Part shown: piece by piece, positions 3,966 through 56,300 of the stretch
How the letters are laid out: each line of letters starts with the position of its first letter
Position numbering within the stretch: the first letter of the stretch is position 1
Assembly: GCF_021246445.1 (NCBI RefSeq)
Contig: NZ_JAJQXW010000002.1
Span: forward strand, 744,001-808,000
Origin: Rhabdothermincola salaria
Lineage (GTDB): Bacteria; Actinomycetota; Acidimicrobiia; Acidimicrobiales; Acidimicrobilacustridaceae
DNA length: 64,000 nucleotides
Direction of reading: 5' to 3'
Notes under the pieces: model-generated
Database searches by the model: none
The model's input: only the letters and a program-made list of their open reading frames with translations
What the model was told of the DNA's origin: nothing
Position numbers and translations under genes: made by a program

Positions 3966-4375
3966 GACACGACCTCCTCGGGCTCGTCGTCGACGGTCAA
4001 CAGCGGGTACACACCGTCCTCGTCGTGGACTTCCTGCCCGGTGACGGGCGGGTTGAAGACGCACACGGCGCGGAACGTCTCGTGGATGGTCAGACGGTGC
4101 TTCTCGTGGCCGTTCAGGAGGTACATCGAGCCGGGCTCGATGCGATGCGACTCACCGGTCGCGATGTCGTCGAGGGTGGCCAGACCCTCGATGCAGTACA
4201 CCGCTTCGATGTGGTTGGCGTACCACATCTCCGTGACGGTGCCGGCGTGCAGCACGGTGTCGTGCAGCGAGAACCCGACTCGGTCGCCGGCGAGCACGAA
4301 GCGTCGCGAGCTCCAGGTGGGCGCGTGGACGTCGCGGTCGGTGCCGACGATGTCGTCGAGGCGGCGGACGATCAC
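3962..4375 (-). CDS. ectC: L-ectoine synthase
   Basis: EctC closes the ring of N-gamma-acetyl-diaminobutyrate to ectoine. This cupin-fold protein has 137 residues, starting [19 protein letters not shown], which matches the usual MIVR-type start of the family. The family blocks [14 protein letters not shown] (near residues 51-64) and [20 protein letters not shown] (near 87-106) hold the metal-binding residues. The start is a GTG at 4375 in a four-base GTGA overlap with the ectB stop, and the stop overlaps the ectD start the same way. Upstream in-frame codons lie inside ectB and are ignored. Confidence 0.96.
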
Positions 4376-47583: not shown

Positions 47584-49227
47584 ATGACCGTCGCCGCGTC
47601 CAACGACGAGACGGCCGCAGGTGGGACCATCACCGACCTCGACCGCCTCGGCTTCGACAACCGCTTCGTGCGCGAGCTCCCCGCCGACCCGGACCCCGAG
47701 AACCGGCGGCGCCAGGTGTACGGCGCGGCCTACTCCCTGGTCACCCCCACGCCCGTCGCCGCGCCCCACACCCTGGTCTGGTCCCCCGAGGTCGCCGCCC
47801 AGCTCGGGCTGGCGCCCGAGCTGTGCGAGTCCCAGGACTTCGCCGAGGTGTTCTCCGGCAACCGGGTGCCGGCAGGGGCGGAGCCCTTCGCCCAGGCCTA
47901 CGCCGGGCACCAGTTCGGCAGCTGGGCCGGTCAGCTCGGTGACGGTCGGGCCATCGGTCTCGGTGAGGTGGTCGACATCAGCGGTCGTCACCAGACCCTG
48001 CAGCTGAAGGGTGCCGGGCCCACCCCGTACTCGCGCACGGCCGACGGCCGGGCCGTGCTGCGCTCGTCGCTGCGCGAGTACGTGTGCAGCGAGGCCATGG
48101 CCCACCTCGGCATCCCCACCACCCGAGCGCTCTCCCTCGTCGTCACGGGTGAGACGGTGGTGCGCGACATGCTCTACGACGGGAACCCCCGCCCGGAGCC
48201 GGGCGCGGTGGTCTGCCGGGTGGCGCCGTCGTTCGCCCGGTTCGGCACGTTCCAGCTGGCGGCGTCGCGCAACGAGATCGATCTGCTGCGCCAGCTGGTC
48301 GAGTTCACGGTGCGCAACGACTTCCCCGAGCTCGCCGAGGACTGGGGCGCCACCCCGGAGCAGTACGTGCCGGCGTTGCTGGCCGAGGTGTGCGACCGCA
48401 CCGCGTCGTTGGTCGTCGACTGGATGCGGGTCGGCTTCGTCCACGGCGTGCTGAACACCGACAACATGTCGATCCTGGGGTTGACCATCGACTACGGCCC
48501 TTACGGCTGGCTCGAGGACTTCGACCCCGGCTGGACCCCCAACACCACCGATGCCGGCATGCGCCGGTACCGGTTCGGGGCCCAGCCCCAGGTGGTGCAC
48601 TGGAACCTGCTGCAGCTGGCCAACGCCCTGGCCAACCTGGTCGACGACCCCGGGTCGCTCCAGGATGCCATCGACGGCTACGCCCGGTCCTACAACGATC
48701 GCTTCCGCACCATGACCGTGGCTCGCCTCGGGTGGGGTGAGCCGACCGACGGCGACGACGCCCTGCTCGACGGCCTGTGGTCGGTGCTGGTCAGTGCCGA
48801 GATCGATCAGGTCCGCTTCCACCGCGACCTGGCCGATGTGCCCGTCGACCCCGCCGTCACCGACGACGAGCTCCTCGCGCCGCTCGCCGCCGCCTGGTAC
48901 CAACCCGAGCAGCTGACCGGTGACGTCCGCTCGGCGCTGGTCACCTGGCTCCGCGACTGGGCGGGTCGCGCCGCGGCGAGCGGCCTCGGGGAGGGGGAGC
49001 GGCGGGCCGCCATGGACCGGCTCAACCCCCTCTACGTGCCTCGCAACTACCTGGCCCAGCAGGCGATCGATGCCGCCGAGCAGGGCGACCTGGCCGAGCT
49101 GCACGAGCTGCTCGAGGTGCTGCGCCGCCCCTACGACGACCAGCCCGGCAAGGAGCGCTTCGCCGAGCGTCGGCCGGACTGGGCCCGGACCCGGGTCGGG
49201 TGCTCCCAGCTCTCCTGCAGCAGCTGA
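47584..49227 (+). CDS. selO: Protein adenylyltransferase SelO (YdiU)
   Basis: SelO is a pseudokinase-fold enzyme that transfers AMP from ATP to Ser, Thr or Tyr of target proteins and is linked to oxidative stress. The 547-residue protein has FAQAYAGHQFGSWAGQLGDG (near 101-120), LQLKGAGPTPYSR with the ATP lysine, and FVHGVLNTDNMSILGLTID (near 293-311) containing the metal-binding Asn/Asp. The C-terminus GCSQLSCSS has Cys545 where eukaryotic SelO carries selenocysteine. Cys540 could form a disulfide with it. It appears monocistronic. Confidence 0.95.
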   Translation: MTVAASNDETAAGGTITDLDRLGFDNRFVRELPADPDPENRRRQVYGAAYSLVTPTPVAAPHTLVWSPEVAAQLGLAPELCESQDFAEVFSGNRVPAGAEPFAQAYAGHQFGSWAGQLGDGRAIGLGEVVDISGRHQTLQLKGAGPTPYSRTADGRAVLRSSLREYVCSEAMAHLGIPTTRALSLVVTGETVVRDMLYDGNPRPEPGAVVCRVAPSFARFGTFQLAASRNEIDLLRQLVEFTVRNDFPELAEDWGATPEQYVPALLAEVCDRTASLVVDWMRVGFVHGVLNTDNMSILGLTIDYGPYGWLEDFDPGWTPNTTDAGMRRYRFGAQPQVVHWNLLQLANALANLVDDPGSLQDAIDGYARSYNDRFRTMTVARLGWGEPTDGDDALLDGLWSVLVSAEIDQVRFHRDLADVPVDPAVTDDELLAPLAAAWYQPEQLTGDVRSALVTWLRDWAGRAAASGLGEGERRAAMDRLNPLYVPRNYLAQQAIDAAEQGDLAELHELLEVLRRPYDDQPGKERFAERRPDWARTRVGCSQLSCSS

Positions 49228-49265: not shown

Positions 49266-49673
49266 TCAGGCGAGGGGACGGGCCACGCTGAGCTCGTGCC
49301 CCGCCGGGTCGAGGACGTGGAAGTAGCGCTCCCCCCAGGGGGCATCGGCGGGGGTCGTCGACGGCCGATAGCCGGCGGCCACCGCTCGGTCGTGGATGGC
49401 ATCGACATCGTCGACCCACACGATGGTGCGCCCCCAGACCCGGGCCGGAGGGGCCCACTCGGGGTCGAGCTGGAGGTTGAGATAGGAGGTCGCCCCGACG
49501 TGGTAGCTGGTGAAGTCGGTGTCGGGACCTCCGTAGGCCCTCACGAAGCCCAGAGCGTCGTAGAAGGCCACCGACGAGGCCATGTCGGCCGTGGCCAGCG
49601 TGACCGCCGACAGCGATCGCACCGGGCCCGCGCCGCCGCCGGTGTCGTCCTCGCCGCTGCCCGTGCTCGCCAT
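49266..49673 (-). CDS. VOC-family (glyoxalase/bleomycin-resistance fold) protein
   Basis: The 135-residue protein has a Gly-rich N-terminal tail (1-17), then SLSAVTLATADMASSVAFYD, TIVWVDDVDAIHDRAVAAGY and a C-terminal GERYFHVLDPAGHELSVARP. This is the two beta-alpha-beta-beta-beta modules of the VOC superfamily. A metal triad is not obvious and no substrate is predicted. CAGGGT lies 6 bases before the ATG at 49673. It converges with selO. Confidence 0.86.
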   Translation of the reverse strand: MASTGSGEDDTGGGAGPVRSLSAVTLATADMASSVAFYDALGFVRAYGGPDTDFTSYHVGATSYLNLQLDPEWAPPARVWGRTIVWVDDVDAIHDRAVAAGYRPSTTPADAPWGERYFHVLDPAGHELSVARPLA

Positions 49674-49796
49674 GGCTCCACCCTGGCACACCCGGCGCGG
49701 CCGGGAGGTCCTCCCCGATGCCGTGCGGCCCTGGGTCTCGACGCCGACCGCGCCGCCGACCCGGCCGCCGGCTTTCGGGGGTGGTGGCCCCTTCGG

Positions 49797-49802
49797 TAGC
49801 GT
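49797..49802 (+). promoter_or_regulatory. Leaderless-type -10 of the hexapeptide acyltransferase gene
   Basis: TAGCGT in GGTAGCGT lies 6 bases before the GTG at 49809. Confidence 0.55.
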
Positions 49803-49808
49803 CGCCGG

Positions 49809-50513
49809 GTGCCCCTCGCCGACCCCTTGCGCCATGCCGTGGATCGAGTGGCTTCGGCAGCGGTCCAGGGTGGGTGGCGCGTCGCCCGTCGGTTCGGCAA
49901 GACCAAGGCCGGCTCCCCCGGGGCGCGGCGTTTCGGCGCGTTCGGCGACGGCAGCTCGTTGGCGTTCCCGCCCGGCGAGGTGATCGGCCCGCAGGCCATC
50001 CGCATCGGGGCCCGATGCGCCATCGGGGCCGAGGTCACGTTGGCGGCCGGCTTCCCGGACCAGGTCTTCCCTCCGGTCTGCGACCCGGTCATCACGTTGG
50101 GGGACCGGGTGACGATCGGTCGGGGCGGCTTCGTGGTCGGGTTGGCGTCGATCCACCTCGAGGACGACGTGACCATCGCGCCCAACGTCTACATCACCGA
50201 CCACAACCACACCTACACCGACCTGTGGCTGCCCATCGGCGAGCAGTGGCCCGAGCAGGCCGATGTCCGCATCGGCGCCGGCAGCTGGCTGGGCACCGGT
50301 GTCATCGTGCTGCCCGGGGCGCAGATCGGTCGCCACGTCACCGTGGCCGGGGGAGCCGTCGTGCGCGGGGTGGTCCCCGACCACTGCGTGGTCGCCGGAG
50401 CCCCGGCCCGGGTGGTGCGGCGCTGGACCGAGGCGGACGGGTGGGTGCCCCCGCTCGCCCGAGAGGTCGAGGTGCCGCCGGGCTGGCCGGTGGGCGTGCC
50501 GCCCGAGCGCTGA
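49809..50513 (+). CDS. Hexapeptide-repeat acyltransferase
   Basis: This 234-residue left-handed beta-helix transferase has hexapeptide turns (IGPQAIRIGARCAIGAEVTL, ITLGDRVTIGRGGFV, VRIGAGSWLGTGVIVLPGAQ). The catalytic His is probably in ITDHNHTYTD (near 129-138), as in WbbJ/maltose O-acetyltransferase-type enzymes that acetylate sugars. An N-terminal 40-residue helical extension is unassigned. The start is a GTG supported by the -10 spacing. The two-component cluster follows after a 106-bp gap with a strong dyad. Confidence 0.88.
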   Translation: MPLADPLRHAVDRVASAAVQGGWRVARRFGKTKAGSPGARRFGAFGDGSSLAFPPGEVIGPQAIRIGARCAIGAEVTLAAGFPDQVFPPVCDPVITLGDRVTIGRGGFVVGLASIHLEDDVTIAPNVYITDHNHTYTDLWLPIGEQWPEQADVRIGAGSWLGTGVIVLPGAQIGRHVTVAGGAVVRGVVPDHCVVAGAPARVVRRWTEADGWVPPLAREVEVPPGWPVGVPPER

Positions 50514-50551
50514 GCCCTCCCGGCGACCGGGCCCGACCCGGCACGCGGGCC

Positions 50552-50586
50552 GACCCAGATGAGAGTGTTCTCATCTGGGTCTCATC
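50552..50586. promoter_or_regulatory. 13-bp perfect dyad with overlapping direct repeats upstream of the two-component cluster
   Basis: GACCCAGATGAGA and its exact complement TCTCATCTGGGTC flank GTGT (50552-50581). TCTCATC also recurs as a direct repeat 11 bases apart (50569 and 50580), the spacing favoured by OmpR-type regulators. The element ends 21 bases before the CAGGAT -10 at 50607, where an activator would bind. It may also terminate the acyltransferase transcript. Confidence 0.65.
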
Positions 50587-50606
50587 ACCCCTTCCCACCC
50601 GGCCGC

Positions 50607-50612
50607 CAGGAT
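50607..50612 (+). promoter_or_regulatory. Candidate leaderless -10 of the two-component operon
   Basis: CAGGAT lies 7 bases before the ATG at 50620, downstream of the dyad. Confidence 0.4.
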
Positions 50613-50619
50613 CGCCCAG

Positions 50620-50952
50620 ATGTCCCGTCTCGCTGCCGTCGCCGTCGCGTTGGTCGTGGCCCTCGTGGTCGGCGCGCTCACCATCGTCGCCGGACGGGCC
50701 CTCGTGGGGGATCCGGCCCCGGCCGTGGAGCCCATCCACCTGAGCACCACGACCACGGCCCCGCCTCCCCCCGAGGCTGAGGCCGCGCCGCCGCCCACCG
50801 AGCCACCTGCGCCCGTGGCGCCGCCGGCCCCGGCCCCCGCTCCCGCCCCTGCGCCGCTACCGCTGCCGGCCTTCCCCAGCGGCGACGACGACGACTTCGA
50901 CGACGACTTCGACGACGACTTCGACGACGACGGGGATGACGGCGATGACTGA
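50620..50952 (+). CDS. Small exported/membrane-anchored protein with Pro-Ala linker and Asp-rich tail
   Basis: The 110-residue protein has one N-terminal hydrophobic segment (LAAVAVALVVALVVGALTIV, about 4-23) and a short STTTTAPPPP stretch. An (AP)n linker (about 60-85) follows. The tail consists of FDDD repeated and ends DDGDDGDD, encoded by three exact 12-bp repeats. It should be anchored with its acidic tail outside the membrane, able to bind cations or basic partners. It overlaps the histidine kinase gene by 8 or 17 bases, so it is co-translated with its probable sensor partner. No family was recognised. Confidence 0.75.
   Translation: MSRLAAVAVALVVALVVGALTIVAGRALVGDPAPAVEPIHLSTTTTAPPPPEAEAAPPPTEPPAPVAPPAPAPAPAPAPLPLPAFPSGDDDDFDDDFDDDFDDDGDDGDD
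50896..50931 (+). repeat. Three tandem 12-bp repeats coding FDDD
   Basis: TTCGACGACGAC occurs three times without a mismatch. Identity at the third codon positions suggests recent slippage expansion. Confidence 0.9.
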
Positions 50953-52468
50953 GTGGTGGCGCGCTCAGGTGCGCGCCTTTCGGGGCATCCGCGGACGGGT
51001 GCTCATCTGGTTCGTGGGCCTCTTCGCCGTGCTGCTGGTCGTCGGTCTCGTCACCGTTCGCCAGGTCCTGCTGGTCCGTCTCGACGACGAGGTCGAGACG
51101 GCGCTGACCCAGGAGGTCGAGGAGCTCCGTCTGCTGTCCCCGGGGGTGAACCCGACGACCGGGGAACCGTTCGGCGACGACGTCACCTCGCTGTTCCAGG
51201 TGTTCGTGGAGCGCAACATCCCGGGCCAGGGCGAGATCCTGTTCGGCCTCACCGACGGCCAGGTGGTCGCCGCCAACCCCCTCACCTTGGCCCGCAGCGT
51301 CGCCGATGCCGAGCTCTTGTCCACCTGGGAGACGGTGCCCCGGCCCACGTGGGGGGAGACCGCGACCGACCAGGGGACGATGCGCTGGTTGGCCGTGCCC
51401 GTCGTGACGGGTGAGCAGGACCGCGGCGTGTTCGCCGTGGCCCAACTGATCGGGCCCCAGCGCGACGACATCAACCAGGAGATCCAGGTCCTGGCGGTGG
51501 TGTTGTTCATCGTCTTGGTGCTGGCCTCCGTCCTGGGGTGGTTGGCCGCCGGCCGCGTGCTCGAACCCCTGCGTCGGGTGACGTCCACGGCGAGGGAGAT
51601 CTCCGACGAAGACCTCTCGGCGCGCATCCCCGTCGAGAGCGACGACGAGGTGGGCGAGCTCACCCGCACGTTCAACGACATGCTCGAACGTCTCGACGAG
51701 GCCTTCTCGGGGCAGCGGACCTTCTTCAACGACCTCGGCCACGAGCTGCGCACCCCCATCACCATCGTGCGGGGCCATCTCGAGCTGCTCCCGGACGATC
51801 CTGCCGAACGTGCCGACGTGGTCGCCGTGTGCCTCGACGAGCTCGACCGCATGGCGCGCTACGTGGCCGACCTCGTGCTGTTGGCGAAGTCCCAACGTCC
51901 CGACTTCCTCGAGGTCCGGCCCGTCGACATCGCCGAGCTGACCGACGGCCTCGAAGCCCGGGCCGTGGCCATCGAACCCGACCGGCGGTGGCGCATCGCC
52001 CGGGTGGCTCCGGTCGTCGTCGACGCCGACCCCGACCGCCTCACCCAGGCCATGGTGAACCTCCTGGCCAACGCCGCTCAGCACACGGGCCCGGGCGGGG
52101 AGATCCGCTTCGGCTCCGAGGTGGGCGACGGAGAGGTCCACCTCTTCGTGACCGACGACGGCCCCGGAGTGGCGCCCGAGGACCGTCGGACCATCTTCGA
52201 GCGCTTCGGCCGAGGATCGGACACCGCCACGCACCGACGCGAGGGGTCGGGCCTCGGCCTGGCGATCGTGGCGGCCATCGCCGAGGCCCACCGTGGCGAG
52301 GTGCGCCTCGACAGCCCCCCGGGCCAAGGCGCCACCTTCAGCATCGTCGTGCCCTTCGAGTACGGGGCCGACGACGACGTCGGACCCCAGGTGGTCACGA
52401 CGAACAGCGTCGTCCTCGACACCCCCCACCAGGTCGACGACGAGACCGAGGAGATCCCCCTGCCATGA
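50936..52468 (+). CDS. Sensor histidine kinase
   Basis: The 510-residue kinase has two membrane segments (about 22-41 and 183-205) bracketing a 140-residue extracellular sensor domain, a HAMP linker (about 206-258) and a HisKA domain with NDLGHELRTPITIVRG (His269). The ATPase domain has NLLANAAQHT, DDGPGV and REGSGLGLAIVAAIAE. A 35-residue acidic C-terminal tail is extra. The start is the ATG at 50936 or 50945, both inside the preceding gene. It overlaps the regulator gene by four bases (ATGA). The sensor domain has no recognised family; the neighbouring acidic proteins are candidate inputs or outputs. Confidence 0.93.
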   Translation: MTAMTEWWRAQVRAFRGIRGRVLIWFVGLFAVLLVVGLVTVRQVLLVRLDDEVETALTQEVEELRLLSPGVNPTTGEPFGDDVTSLFQVFVERNIPGQGEILFGLTDGQVVAANPLTLARSVADAELLSTWETVPRPTWGETATDQGTMRWLAVPVVTGEQDRGVFAVAQLIGPQRDDINQEIQVLAVVLFIVLVLASVLGWLAAGRVLEPLRRVTSTAREISDEDLSARIPVESDDEVGELTRTFNDMLERLDEAFSGQRTFFNDLGHELRTPITIVRGHLELLPDDPAERADVVAVCLDELDRMARYVADLVLLAKSQRPDFLEVRPVDIAELTDGLEARAVAIEPDRRWRIARVAPVVVDADPDRLTQAMVNLLANAAQHTGPGGEIRFGSEVGDGEVHLFVTDDGPGVAPEDRRTIFERFGRGSDTATHRREGSGLGLAIVAAIAEAHRGEVRLDSPPGQGATFSIVVPFEYGADDDVGPQVVTTNSVVLDTPHQVDDETEEIPLP

Positions 52469-53136
52469 CCCGCATACTCATCGCCGAGGACGAGGAGCGC
52501 ATCACCACCTTCCTCGAGCGCGGTCTGAAGACCAACGGCTACTCGACCATGGCCGTCCACACCGGGTTCGAAGCGGTCGAGATGGCTCGTGACGGCGAGT
52601 TCGAGCTCCTGATCCTCGACCTCGGCCTGCCCGGGATCGACGGTCAGCAGGTGCTGCGGGCCATGCGGGCCCGGGGCGAGACCATGCCCGTCATCGTCCT
52701 CACCGCGCGCGACGCGGTGGAGGACACCGTCGCCGGCTTCGAGGGCGGAGCCGACGACTACGTGACCAAGCCGTTCCGGTTCGAGGAGCTCCTGGCCCGC
52801 ATCCGGGTCCGCCTCCGTGACGAGACCACGGCCGAGACCACCGTGCTGCGCGTGGGGGACGTGGCGCTCGACATGCTCACCCGGCGGGCCCACGTGGGCG
52901 ACCGTGTGGTCGAGCTCACCGCCCGGGAGTACGCGCTGGCCGAGACGTTCCTGCGCCATCCCGACCAGGTCCTGAGCCGGGAACAGCTCCTCAGCCACGT
53001 GTGGGGGTACGACTTCGCCCCGGAATCGAACGTGGTGGACGTCTACGTGCGCTACCTGCGTCGCAAGCTCGGCGACGGGGTCATCGAGACGGTCAGGGGC
53101 ATGGGCTATCGGCTCTCGCCGGATCATCGCGCCTGA
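52465..53136 (+). CDS. OmpR-family response regulator
   Basis: The 223-residue regulator has a receiver domain with Glu/Asp cluster AEDEER, the phospho-acceptor Asp52 in LILDLGLPGIDG, Thr80 and Lys102 in DYVTKPFRFEELLAR. A winged-helix DNA-binding domain (about 130-220) ends RYLRRKLGDGVIETVRGMGY. OmpR-type regulators bind direct repeats spaced 10-11 bases, such as those found at 50569-50586. It is co-translated with the kinase and probably controls the surrounding units. Confidence 0.95.
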   Translation: MTRILIAEDEERITTFLERGLKTNGYSTMAVHTGFEAVEMARDGEFELLILDLGLPGIDGQQVLRAMRARGETMPVIVLTARDAVEDTVAGFEGGADDYVTKPFRFEELLARIRVRLRDETTAETTVLRVGDVALDMLTRRAHVGDRVVELTAREYALAETFLRHPDQVLSREQLLSHVWGYDFAPESNVVDVYVRYLRRKLGDGVIETVRGMGYRLSPDHRA

Positions 53137-53155
53137 TCCCGAGCGGGGCCCGACC

Positions 53156-53179
53156 CACGATGAGAGCCTTCTCATCGTG
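53156..53179. promoter_or_regulatory. Second ATGAGA-N4-TCTCAT dyad, at the start of the APH-fold kinase gene
   Basis: CACGATGAGA and TCTCATCGTG form a perfect 10-bp inverted repeat around GCCT, ending 5 bases before the ATG at 53185. A CATCGT hexamer 6 bases before the ATG overlaps its right arm, so a bound protein would block this putative leaderless promoter. It could instead act as a terminator for the regulator gene. Confidence 0.6.
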
Positions 53180-53184
53180 TCCCA

Positions 53185-54453
53185 ATGAAGCTCTCAGCGC
53201 TCGCCGCTCGACTGGGGGTCGTGGAGAACAGTGCCCCCCGGCTGCCCGCGGCCGACACCCTGCTCGGTCCCGGCGCCGACGAGATGGTGGCCGTCGCCGT
53301 CGAGGCGGGCGGCGGCCGCCTCCTCTCGTTGGCCCGCAACCAGGTCCTGCACCGTCCCGGGCGCGCCCTGACCGTTCGCTTCTCGGCGGAGGTGGCCTGG
53401 GCCGGTGACGTGCGCACCCGCGAGACCGTCGTGGCCATGGCCGGAGTCGACGGCCCACCCGAGGGGACCCTCGTGCTGGAGGCGGGTGATGAACGAGTCG
53501 GGCTGTTCCGCTACCCCCACGATCCGCTGCTTCCCGGTCTGGTGGCGGCCACCTCGCCCGACGCGGTCGCCGAGCGCATCGGCCACCGGGTGGCCGAGGG
53601 CGGCCTCACCGTGGTGGCCTACCGCCCGGCCCGACGAGCCGTCGTGCGAGTGGACCTGGCCGGCGGCGGGCAGCGCTACCTGAAGGTGGTGCCCCCCTCG
53701 GAGGCACCGGCCCTGGTCGCCCGCCTCGACCGGCTGGCCGGGGTGGTCCCCGCCCCCCGAGTGCTGTCCCGACACGTCGCCGAGGGGTTGGTGGAGCTCG
53801 AGGCCATCCCTGGTCGCACGCTGCGCGATGCCCTCCGGGCCGACCGAGTGGGTCGGGTCACCGCCACCGGCCCGGCCCGTCCTCCCGAGCCGGGCCGTGT
53901 GCTCGAGGTGCTCGAGCGACTCGACACCGTCGACGTCACCGATCTGGCCCCTCACTGGACGGTGCCCGAGATGGCGCGCGGCCTCGGCGCCATGCTGAGC
54001 GCCGTGTTGCCCACCGAGGCAGAACGCCTGGCCGCGCTCGGCCACGAGCTGGGCCGGGAGGTGCCTCAACGCCAGGTCGCCGTCCACGGAGATCTGCACC
54101 CGGCCCAGTTCCTCGTGCAGCGCAGCACCATCACCGGCGTGCTCGACCTCGACGACCTGGGCCCCGGCGCTCGGGTGGACGACCTGGCGACCTTCCTCGG
54201 CCACGTCGTGGCCTTCGGCGTCGAGGGGGATCAGCCTCCGGCTCGACGCTACGCCGCCCGCCTGCTCCCGGTCTTCGGAGAGGCGACCGACCCCGACGAG
54301 CTGCGACGGCGCACCGCGGCGGTCCTCCTGGGCCTGGCCACCGGCCCGTACCGGGTCCAGCAACCCGACTGGCCCGAAGCGTGCCGTCGCCGCATCGCCC
54401 TGGCCGAGCGCTGGGCCCTCGGAGATGTGAGGAGTCTCAGAGAAGCCTCATGA
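53185..54453 (+). CDS. Aminoglycoside phosphotransferase-fold kinase
   Basis: This 422-residue protein has a kinase-like fold of the APH/choline kinase group in its C-terminal half. It includes VAVHGDLHPAQFLVQ (near 303-317; catalytic Asp in HGDLH) and GVLDLDDLGPGARVDDLATF (near 323-342; metal-binding Asp). A QRYLKVV segment near 166 could supply the ATP lysine. The N-terminal 130 residues form a separate beta-rich region of unknown function. The substrate is unknown, and antibiotic modification is not implied. It sits inside the two-component cluster and carries the cluster's dyad at its start. Confidence 0.82.
   Translation: MKLSALAARLGVVENSAPRLPAADTLLGPGADEMVAVAVEAGGGRLLSLARNQVLHRPGRALTVRFSAEVAWAGDVRTRETVVAMAGVDGPPEGTLVLEAGDERVGLFRYPHDPLLPGLVAATSPDAVAERIGHRVAEGGLTVVAYRPARRAVVRVDLAGGGQRYLKVVPPSEAPALVARLDRLAGVVPAPRVLSRHVAEGLVELEAIPGRTLRDALRADRVGRVTATGPARPPEPGRVLEVLERLDTVDVTDLAPHWTVPEMARGLGAMLSAVLPTEAERLAALGHELGREVPQRQVAVHGDLHPAQFLVQRSTITGVLDLDDLGPGARVDDLATFLGHVVAFGVEGDQPPARRYAARLLPVFGEATDPDELRRRTAAVLLGLATGPYRVQQPDWPEACRRRIALAERWALGDVRSLREAS
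54436..54451. promoter_or_regulatory. Degenerate third copy of the cluster operator
   Basis: CTCAGAGAAGCCTCAT reads on the minus strand as ATGAGG, four bases, TCTGAG, matching the ATGAGA-N4-TCTCAT core at 9 of 12 positions. On the plus strand TCTCA and CCTCA are 11 bases apart. It overlaps the end of the kinase gene, about 75 bases before the next start. Confidence 0.4.
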
Positions 54454-54526
54454 CGCCTTCACCCCGGCGAGAGAGAACAGACACCAGAGGCGGACGAGCC
54501 GTCTCCCCCCACCACAGGAGCACCCC

Positions 54527-54952
54527 ATGAACAAGAACTGGAAGATCGCCATCGCCAGCGGTGCCGTCGCCGGACTCGCCATCGGCGGGTTCTCGGTCGC
54601 CTCGGCCGACGACGGGCCGAGCCTGCCCGACCCCGTCGTGGTCGACACCTCGCCCGTGTCGACCACGGCCACCACTCTCATGGGCGACGATGCCAGCAAC
54701 TCGGTGTCGGTCCCACCGGTCGAGGTGCCCGCTCCGGCGCCCGCGCCTGCCCCGCCCGCGCCTGCCCCGGCCCCGGCCCCGGCCCCGGCCCCGGCCCCCC
54801 AGTGGGACTCGTTCGACTCCCCGGCCCCGGGCCCCGCTCCGGCCCCCGCTCCGGCTCCCGCCCCGTCCTTCGACAGCTGGGACTCGCCCGATGTGGAGTC
54901 CTTCGACTCGCCGGCCTCGTTCGACTCGTTCGACTCGTTCGACTCCCCCTGA
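54527..54952 (+). CDS. Secreted protein with Pro-Ala linkers and Phe-Asp-Ser repeats
   Basis: The 141-residue protein has a signal peptide (MNKNWKIAIASGAVAGLAIG to about residue 27, SVASA before DDGP) and a STTATTLMGDDASNS segment. Two long (AP)n runs (about 68-88 and 97-110) alternate with SFDSWDSP-type units and end in FDSFDSFDSP. The build mirrors the Pro-Ala/Asp-rich protein at 50620. CAGGAG ends 6 bases before the ATG. It ends at a strong terminator. It may be a surface-exposed or wall-spanning protein controlled by the adjacent two-component system; function unknown. Confidence 0.78.
   Translation: MNKNWKIAIASGAVAGLAIGGFSVASADDGPSLPDPVVVDTSPVSTTATTLMGDDASNSVSVPPVEVPAPAPAPAPPAPAPAPAPAPAPAPQWDSFDSPAPGPAPAPAPAPAPSFDSWDSPDVESFDSPASFDSFDSFDSP
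54920..54946 (+). repeat. Tandem 9-bp repeats coding FDS
   Basis: TTCGACTCG occurs twice and TTCGACTCC once in tandem, with further copies spaced upstream from 54817. Confidence 0.85.
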
Positions 54953-54971
54953 CCCATCCGCCCAGCCGCAG

Positions 54972-55004
54972 CCGGCCCGTCACCCGCCTCGGGTGGCGGG
55001 CCGG
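54972..55004. terminator. Bidirectional terminator at the end of the two-component cluster
   Basis: A 15-bp stem (CCGGCCCGTCACCCG with CGGGTGGCGGGCCGG, one G-U pair) and a 3-base loop lie between the convergent stops at 54952 and 55032. Confidence 0.85.
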
Positions 55005-55031
55005 GTCGCGTCCGGGCGCCCCCGACGGCGG

Positions 55032-56288
55032 TCAGCGTCGGAGGCGGACCACCATGCGGCGAATGCCGGTGTGGCGGTTGCTGCGGGTCCACTCGACCGG
55101 CTCCACGAGCTCGAGCGCGGAGAAGCGGGGGAGCAGCTCCTCGAACAGCACGCGGATCTCGAGGCGGGCCAGGTTGGCCCCCAGGCAGTAGTGGATGCCG
55201 TGCCCGAAGCCCACGTGGGGGTTCGGTGACCGGGTGATGTCGAACGTGTCGGGACGGTCGAAGGCGAGCTCGTCGCGGTTGGCCGAGCCCTCCCAGACCA
55301 CCACCTTCTCGCCGGGCGCGATCTCGTGGCCCCCCAGCACCGCGGGGCGGGTGGCGGTGCGGCGCTTGGCCGGCGACGGCGTGGTCCAGCGCACGATCTC
55401 CTCGACGGCGGTGGGCAGCAGGGCCGGGTCCTCGCGGAGGGCGGTCATCTGGTCGGGGTGGTCGAGCAGGGCCAGCAGCCCGCCGGCGATGGCGTTGCGG
55501 GTCGTCTCGGCGCCGGCGCTGAACAACAGCGAGAAGAAGGCGTAGAGCTCCATGTCGCTGAGCCGTGGTGCCTCGGGGTCGTCGAGCTCGGCGTGGACGA
55601 CGACGGAGAGCAGGTCGTCGCCGGGCTGCGCGCGCTTGGCGGCGATGAGCTCGTTGCCGTAGCGGAACATCTGGGCGCGGGCCTCGTCGGCTCCGACCGG
55701 CGCGGTGTCGGAGCGGCGGGCCGATCCCATGTCGAAGGTCGGCTCCACCGCCTCGAACAGCCAGTGCCGGTCCTCTTCGGGCATGCCCAGCAACACGCAG
55801 ATCATCTGCATGGGGAGCTCGGCCGCCACGTCGGACAGGACGTCGAAGGCCTCGCCGTCGACCACGTCGTCGAGCAGTCCCCGGGTGCGGGCCCGCAGGT
55901 CGTCCTCGACACGGCGGATCATGCGTGGCGTCAACCCCGACGTGACCAGTCGCCTGATCCGGGCGTGGCGCGGATCGTCCATCATGTTCAGGACCTGTCC
56001 GGCGATGGGCAGATCCTGGATCAGGGTCCCGCCGTAGGGGCGATCGCCGCCGGTCTCCGAGGAGTACGTCACGGGGTCGTGGAGGACCTCCATGGTCTCG
56101 GCGTGGGTGGCCACCGACCAGAACCCCTCGTCGTCGGGTGTGTGCTCGGTCGGCGGGTGCCACCAGACCGGGGCGACGCGCCGGTGCCCGGCGAACAGCT
56201 CGTGGGGGAAGCCGTCGGCGAAGTTGTCGAGGTCGGTGAGGTCGATGCCGACGAGCTCGCCCGGCACGTCCGAAGCGCGAACGGTCAT
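55032..56288 (-). CDS. Cytochrome P450
   Basis: This 418-residue soluble bacterial P450 has the heme loop [18 protein letters not shown] with axial Cys368, the I-helix SAGAETTRN (near 257-265) with an oxygen-activation Glu-Thr pair, and a K-helix ExxR in VEEIVRW (about 295-301). The AGAETTRN and [10 protein letters not shown] blocks resemble CYP125/CYP142-type steroid or fatty-acid hydroxylases; that is a similarity judgement only. No ferredoxin gene is adjacent. CATGAT lies 6 bases before the ATG. Confidence 0.93.
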
Positions 56289-56294
56289 GGCCCC

Positions 56295-56300
56295 ATCATG
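56295..56300 (-). promoter_or_regulatory. Candidate leaderless -10 of the P450 gene
   Basis: CATGAT on the minus strand lies 6 bases before the ATG at 56288; the first T of the pattern is C. Confidence 0.35.

Follow-up and report, generated by a model that had tools for sequence, protein, structure and literature searches.

Several described systems each resemble one part of the locus analyzed here, a cluster of five genes at positions 50,552 to 54,952 of a 64,000-nucleotide stretch of Rhabdothermincola salaria DNA (contig NZ_JAJQXW010000002.1, positions 744,001 to 808,000 of the forward strand; hereafter the window). In this module, a small acidic membrane protein (P1), a sensor histidine kinase (HK) and an OmpR-family response regulator (RR) stand beside an APH-fold kinase and an exported repeat protein (P2), and the genes carry copies of a putative operator. 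WalK-WalR is likewise an OmpR-class two-component system (TCS), and the outer domain of our HK is PAS-like (model with a predicted local distance difference test, pLDDT, of 90), with the cell-wall kinase WalK as its nearest, although weak, match among solved structures (E about 1e-3). The HK scores below cut-off against the WalK equivalog (168 of 725 bits), and a sequence profile of its sensor gave zero matches in the PDB. The single-pass accessory proteins YycH and YycI are encoded near WalRK, as P1 is near the HK. WalRK governs a global, essential regulon of which a kinase and P2 are not known to be part, whereas the module's operator is almost confined to module loci among 31 genomes, and P1, like P2, fits no Pfam or NCBIfam family above cut-off. 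HbpS-SenS-SenR of Streptomyces and similar three-component systems differ from the module by their accessory protein and are not known to have a pair of kinase and repeat protein. Like the module, they combine a secreted accessory protein with an actinobacterial HK/RR pair (PMC4991794).

For the kinase and P2, other parallels exist. The repeats of the Bacillus spore coat proteins CotB and CotG are basic and rich in Ser, Lys and Arg. As in the module, a kinase gene lies beside low-complexity Ser-repeat structural proteins, and CotH polyphosphorylates the Ser-rich repeats of CotB (PMC7821199). CotH, however, is of a different kinase family from the module's, and P2 is Asp-rich with almost no Lys and has no spore context. 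KinD is a phosphotransferase that acts on peptide Thr and Ser in the synthesis of ribosomally synthesized and post-translationally modified peptides (PMC9415263), and TvaE, an inactive kinase homologue from this group of APH-like kinases (KinD, thioviridamide and class V lanthipeptides), is among the fold matches of the module kinase; in contrast to that group, no lyase or decarboxylase partner was seen in the listed module loci, and P2 has no Cys after residue 35 in 60 of 60 sequences. The fold is also common to mycobacterial maltokinase and the macrolide and aminoglycoside phosphotransferases, from which the module kinase is set apart as a separate subfamily tied to P2 and the operator. As a mycobacterial counterpart, MSMEG_0243/0244/0246 was rejected, being a haem-binding accessory protein with a PrrAB-like TCS (PMC7516205), and literature searches, assessed by their result listings, turned up no description of the module, which is weak negative evidence.

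Our analysis, which is computational throughout, leads us to regard the locus as a self-contained, probably envelope-sensing system, in which one regulon produces exported acidic proteins and the HK-RR pair is the sensor; we consider this likely. The features, all on the forward strand and in window coordinates, are as follows.

50558..50586, +, operator O1 for P1-HK-RR, GATGAGA n4 TCTCATC n4 TCTCATC, 21/21 fixed bases
50607..50612, +, putative -10 element (CAGGAT), 20 nt after O1, suggested by spacing across relatives
50620..50952, +, P1, single-pass membrane protein with a VEPI-x-L juxtamembrane motif, Pro/Ala linker and Asp-rich tail
50945..52468, +, sensor HK: transmembrane segment, PAS-like extracytoplasmic domain, transmembrane segment, HAMP, HisKA, HATPase_c
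52465..53136, +, OmpR-family response regulator
53159..53187, +, operator O2 for the kinase gene, 17/21, inverted pair perfect
53221..54453, +, APH-fold kinase with revised start GTG 53221 (listed open reading frame: ATG 53185)
54424..54452, +, operator O3 for P2, overlapping the kinase 3' end, 16/21 (third half-site scored by hand), 3 mismatches in the inverted pair
54527..54952, +, P2, exported, with an NWKIA-type N terminus, (AP)n linkers and FDS/DSP repeats
54972..55004, +, GC hairpin after P2, probable terminator (folding against shuffles)

Five open reading frames (ORFs) are found where the original prediction had placed them, and its picture of an HK, an OmpR-type RR and a small membrane protein in overlapping ORFs is borne out: by Pfam and NCBIfam the HK has HAMP/HisKA/HATPase_c and the adjacent RR has Response_reg/Trans_reg_C, as is usual for an HK/OmpR-type pair, the HK start overlaps P1 by 8 nt (ATG 50945) or 17 nt (alternative ATG 50936), and RR and HK overlap in ATGA. 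The predicted linker and acidic tail of P1 were likewise recovered, as an N-terminal hydrophobic stretch, a tandem array in the gene (TRF: 12-bp unit, 3.8 copies, 100%) and the tail DDDDFDDDFDDDFDDD. Among 38 P1 proteins, chosen for an acidic tail, the last 30 residues are 56% Asp, and a PI-x-[VIL]-type motif occurs in 31. A motif of the form NP/DP-x-TGEPF...RN[VI]P...E recurs in the HK outer domain. The signal-like N terminus, (AP)n linkers and FDS repeats ascribed to P2 are also present, and the repeats form a genuine array.

To survey relatives, 298 genomes of the order Acidimicrobiales were scanned with the kinase. Thirteen genomes besides its own contain a strong relative (E 4e-27 or better), and 36, its own counted, contain anything similar at E 1e-3 or better. 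HK and RR homologues lie in the stretch around the kinase in 11 of the 13; the kinase of G026 has none in its stretch, and that of G152 stands at a contig start. A genus relative found through its HK (G001) has the kinase with both homologues too. A wider scan compared a kinase alignment with one genome per species, and the best 80 of 142 relatives, together with the window and the in-order loci and minus 5 duplicates, gave 89 distinct kinase loci. From these, 22 Brachybacterium/Dermabacter-type kinases (32-35% identity) were separated as a contrast group post hoc, after the results were known, which leaves a main set of 67. An HK was counted as present at E below 1e-45, and the P2 gene was picked by an ORF heuristic that favors a W-K motif and D/S/P/T content.

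In this main set, HK and RR accompany the kinase in 50 loci, an acidic P1 lies upstream of the HK in 39 of those 50, P2 adjoins the kinase in 60 (59 by script and L147 by eye), and all five genes are present in 38. The original prediction held that the five genes form one system and would have been undermined by repeat proteins absent from, or randomly placed beside, the HK/RR pair in relatives; the outcome is the opposite, and the co-occurrence, together with the shared operator, supports a single system. Gene order, whose conservation it had named as a support, is flexible: in several loci the kinase-P2 pair runs the other way round from HK-RR. Culture-collection actinobacteria such as Blastococcus, Geodermatophilus, Saccharomonospora and Phytohabitans have the module, whose distribution is patchy; HK, RR, kinase and P2 occur in the Chloroflexi loci L155, L183 and L196, where an acidic P1 was not found. 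A search of plasmids with the kinase gave zero matches. In the contrast group, no HK/RR was found in the stretch (22 loci), P2 was found in 0 of 21 by the same heuristic, and the operator was absent at the kinase (0/22) and at the next gene (0/21), which we take to resemble a D-aminoacyl-tRNA deacylase gene; one locus of this group, L204, has a 16/21 operator match elsewhere.

The operator ties these genes together. Its three copies in the window, at 50558, 53159 and 54424, went unmentioned in the original prediction; recurring copies of TCTCATC ahead of P1 and of the kinase were first noticed by eye, and alignment of the loci gave the composite GATGAGA-n4-TCTCATC-n4-TCTCATC. Scored at 16 or more of 21 fixed bases, with the chance level taken from shuffled sequences (random segments are unsuitable, as they contain real sites), it lies upstream of P1/HK in 38 of 48 loci (shuffles 0.08 per set), of the kinase in 44 of 67 (0.04 per set) and of the P2-side gene in 33 of 66 (0.02 per set), the last set including 7 loci where P2 is missing or was wrongly picked. 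It is oriented toward the gene in 36/38, 41/44 and 33/33 cases, respectively, and half-sites with 11-bp spacing recur upstream of module genes. In 31 whole genomes searched at up to 3 mismatches, 54 matches occur in 28, some of them overlapping opposite-strand pairs, and 51 of the 54 fall in module loci by coordinates, while the reversed pattern, as a control, has 0 matches in the same genomes; O1 is the sole such copy in the window's genome. In Mycolicibacterium elephantis, where HK-RR (42%, 66%) is on a different contig from kinase-P2, the operator stands at both unlinked halves. At the level of sequence comparison, HK-RR, P1, the APH-fold kinase and P2 are thus shown as one recurring unit sharing one operator, and the suggestion that the acidic proteins are the produced component is well supported in silico, since P1-HK-RR, the kinase and P2 share it. 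The regulon is the best supported part of our proposal, as read from sequence.

The remaining 3 of the 54 matches (two in Klenkia, one in Modestobacter) stand before a lipoprotein in which Asp residues cluster; the only one tested has DUF7282. A second set, of 14 genomes picked for a partial or absent module, has matches in 5 and none in 9: two Kribbella carry the operator at the kinase or P2 gene, and Blastococcus tunisiensis before a small acidic-tailed lipoprotein. The genome of Streptomyces flavidovirens has zero matches and therefore a kinase-P2 pair without the operator. The exported Asp-rich lipoproteins that extra operators precede outside the module are at L255 3887-4414 (DUF7282), L256 3860-4447, L257 3865-4464 and L280 4321-4506. 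Such sites suggest that exported acidic proteins are the theme of the regulon.

Within the window's genome, the closest TCS paralogue, at L045 6810-10661 (HK 41%, RR 59%), served as a specificity control: it has no APH kinase, no P2 and no operator at 11 or more of 14, and its P1-like protein is Pro/Thr-rich without the acidic D-tail. The related locus L043, whose contig measures 5.1 kb, gives a similar picture, and a single match at 11/14 is present in L044.

The distances between operator and start codon are also constrained. Of 43 kinase operators, 41 are followed by an in-frame start at a distance of 32 or 33 nt (30 and 11, respectively), compared with 14% for 7-nt control windows inside the kinase ORF, and leaderless promoters are therefore implied. 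P1 starts, which are heuristic, lie 31-35 nt after the operator in 23 of 36 rows (two P2 rows and two duplicates dropped), so the P1 transcript would begin on or close to the start codon of P1. For P2, the distance from operator to start is 57-85 nt (29 measured), and the P2 gene of the window has a GGAG resembling a Shine-Dalgarno sequence. With a -10 element about 20 nt after the operator (TAGACT at the expected position in Saccharomonospora) and the third half-site over the -35 region, we infer activation and leaderless mRNA. This geometry bears on the kinase gene: the original prediction of an APH-fold kinase stands, given its Pfam match (PF01636, 50.8 bits against a gathering cut-off of 23.2), but the start is most likely GTG 53221 rather than ATG 53185, because the latter lies inside the operator, residues 1-16 have pLDDT below 50 and homologues start at an equivalent distance from the operator.

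We propose that the PAS-like outer domain would let the HK sense an extracellular change, with the membrane-anchored acidic P1 as its probable partner, and that the phosphorylated RR would bind the tandem half-sites overlapping the -35 region and activate leaderless P1-HK-RR and kinase transcripts and a leadered P2 transcript. In the least certain step, the cytoplasmic kinase might phosphorylate Ser/Thr residues of the DSP/TPD/SPESADSP repeats while P2 is still inside the cell, and phosphorylated P2 would then form a Pro-rich polymer in the envelope, disordered and with a strong negative charge. That P2 adjoins the kinase in 60 of 67 loci, even in 12 that kept the pair with no HK/RR in the stretch, points to a direct link, and a pair that outlasts both HK/RR (those 12) and the operator (5 of the 12 lack it at 16/21) suggests mutual action or one shared step. 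The P2 composition set of 60 sequences (differing slightly from the 60 loci, with L088 in and L147 out) has DSP in 49 and SPE[ST][AV]DS in 23, in several genera, 0.4% Lys and a net charge of -2 to -77; a Trp followed by K, R, T, A or V within the first 22 residues occurs in 59 of 60, a figure partly selected by the picking heuristic. With Ser/Thr in this recurring acidic-Pro context, P2 is a plausible kinase substrate, and by analogy CotH and KinD indicate that such protein and peptide phosphorylation chemistry exists. We advance phosphorylation of P2 by the kinase tentatively. A shade more doubtful is a wider reading for actinobacteria and some Chloroflexi, in which a dedicated APH-fold protein kinase of the cytoplasm would phosphorylate a disordered Ser/Thr-Pro-Asp repeat protein at many sites before its export, and a TCS would switch on the whole set when needed, its own acidic membrane partner included.

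A number of observations weigh against this proposal. No HK/RR is in the examined stretch of 17 of the 67 kinase loci, some at contig ends; neither P2 nor HK/RR was found by script in five (L160, L173, L212, L213 and L219, the last with a P2-like tail lacking a normal N terminus and an RR fragment at a contig end), and HK/RR stands without P2 in L201 (kinase running off the contig) and L224 (divergent HK, 33%). The acidic P1 was not found in 11 of 50 HK loci, 2 of which have no sequence upstream, and none was found next to the HK of M. elephantis, which is unlinked from the kinase; G006 has HK-RR (56%, 72%) in a genome without the module kinase (best APH match E 6e-7). The post hoc separation of the contrast group matters, as over all 89 loci P2 is in 60 and HK/RR in 50, and the P2 heuristic rewards expected features, yet gave 0/21 in the contrast group. 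Half of the P2-side promoters are below threshold, O3 is a weak site at 16/21, and the module RR is only putatively connected with the operator, by association. For the last step, phosphorylation ahead of Sec export would be unusual, and the kinase is at least as similar to small-molecule kinases as to protein kinases.

Three of the alternatives concern roles within the same regulon. The strongest, a serious contender even if short of probable, is that the kinase acts on a small molecule or envelope sugar, as maltokinase or antibiotic kinases do, and that P2 belongs to the regulon as an envelope protein in its own right. The best Foldseek match of the kinase model (pLDDT 92) is mycobacterial maltokinase 4u94 (E 1e-10), followed by macrolide/aminoglycoside phosphotransferases and others, at 13-24% identity among the 50 matches listed, and its sequence profile matches APH, hygromycin, capreomycin and viomycin kinases. 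The adjacency of P2, with or without HK/RR, speaks for phosphorylation of P2 instead. The catalytic residues are kept: Lys167, H301, Asp303, Gln308 and Asp321 (numbered from the ATG 53185 ORF) are invariant in 35 kinase sequences, with Gln308 at what we take to be the usual Asn position of the APH family. No CotH-family kinase match was found (APH is the only Pfam match at E 0.1 or better), and the score against the class V lanthipeptide kinase LxmK is below cut-off (14.8 of 315 bits).

We think it unlikely that the module is a polycation defense, in which P1 and P2 would be anionic decoys for cationic antimicrobials sensed by the HK, and the kinase would inactivate a cationic antibiotic. The Asp content of P1 tails, the charge of P2, the action of several solved kinase relatives on cationic antibiotics and the extra operators before other Asp-rich lipoproteins would all suit it, but the Ser/Thr and Pro richness of P2 is superfluous for a simple anionic decoy, and the kinase scores far under curated resistance-kinase cut-offs (30.8 of 205 bits for the NCBIfam APH(3') resistance equivalog). 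Similarly improbable is the buffering of a metal such as Ca2+, or mineral-binding envelope proteins, under an ion-sensing kinase: the tails are Asp-rich, the acidic DSP repeats of P2 presumably resemble phosphophoryn-type sequences, and the top NCBIfam matches of HK and RR are heavy-metal TCS subfamilies (cztRS/copRS, TIGR01386/TIGR01387), but these miss the cut-off (217.4 of 292.55 and 212 of 279.2 bits), and no metal-transport gene was seen at the inspected operator sites. A chance neighborhood of unrelated genes, which rearranged or incomplete loci such as the 17 without HK/RR might suggest, is contradicted by the shared operator, fixed spacing and unlinked co-regulation and is highly improbable.

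With the self-contained sensing system as our proposal, five genes, two without a family above cut-off, become one testable unit with a predicted regulator site, a promoter and a possible kinase-substrate pair. Phosphorylation of P2, if true, would be an additional route to phosphorylated exported proteins in bacteria and a bacterial counterpart of secretory-pathway phosphoproteins; if it is false, the module would still be a sensor with an exported acidic protein as output.

Further observations concern individual features. The strong terminator predicted after P2 is indeed a strong hairpin (minimum free energy of 54953-55031, -53.2 kcal/mol; z -3.3; 1/200 shuffles equally good) but is not of canonical form, and it is plausible rather than canonical as a terminator because no U-run was found; Rfam gave nothing at gathering scores over 49500-56300. 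The P2 proteins of six relatives had sub-threshold matches only in Pfam and NCBIfam, and a PepSY link of P2 was dropped (L202 against NF051432, PepSY_MTB, 25.5 of 60 bits; sub-threshold matches only in a 9-genome search). A fourth 3-mismatch match to the operator in the window, at 4139, does not exceed the chance expectation of 1.4.

An initial pattern of two direct half-sites, since replaced by the composite, has a single exact match in each of 14 genomes among the 298. Three matches are in module loci: the window's own (G000), one about 60 bp upstream of the kinase in G102, and one in G126 between the kinase and a divergent exported protein and directed at the latter. Of the other 11, those in G041, G048, G067, G167 and G211 lie within 5 kb of HK/RR homologues (31-59% identity), with a good composite (20/21) in G048 and G067 only; the remaining matches are chance-like. 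In these two genomes, at L130 2684-4825 and L131 2186-4969, HK/RR homologues (RR 59% and 50%) have the 20/21 site nearby and no kinase was found in the stretch; they are probably more distant members or relatives of the module TCS. Matches with one mismatch in G155, G174, G006 (C116/C187) and G102 (C36), and a second HK region in G037, showed no module on inspection.

Among minor observations, the G006 C116 site (19/21) stands before an unrelated-looking gene, and a site-like sequence in G006 precedes an exported protein resembling the site-preceded one of G126. A repetitive exported protein of CRG-LG-V-VDN-VP-GA-C type, perhaps a beta-solenoid, is encoded at L040 8536-9114, L080 8167-8721 and L155 4646-5143; two genomes have an operator-like site in front of it, and in one Chloroflexi locus it is close to the kinase. 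In two Brachybacterium of the second genome set, an operator variant lies at other genes; at L275, L276, L277 and L278 it is of [TC]CTGAGA-n4-TCTCATC-n4 type, and one contig has a related RR fragment. L081 6319-7217 (same record as L152) has two operators 756 bp apart and a partial HK duplication; P1 was not found there, and what we take to be a PIN-like fragment is at its expected position. M. elephantis has a second, more diverged kinase copy (L273 2224-3375, G330:C37) with no P2 or operator seen in the stretch, and near the L045 paralogue lies an exported protein of 361 aa that matches nothing in Pfam or NCBIfam. Upstream of the module, the window encodes a SelO-family protein adenylyltransferase (PF02696) at 47584-49227.

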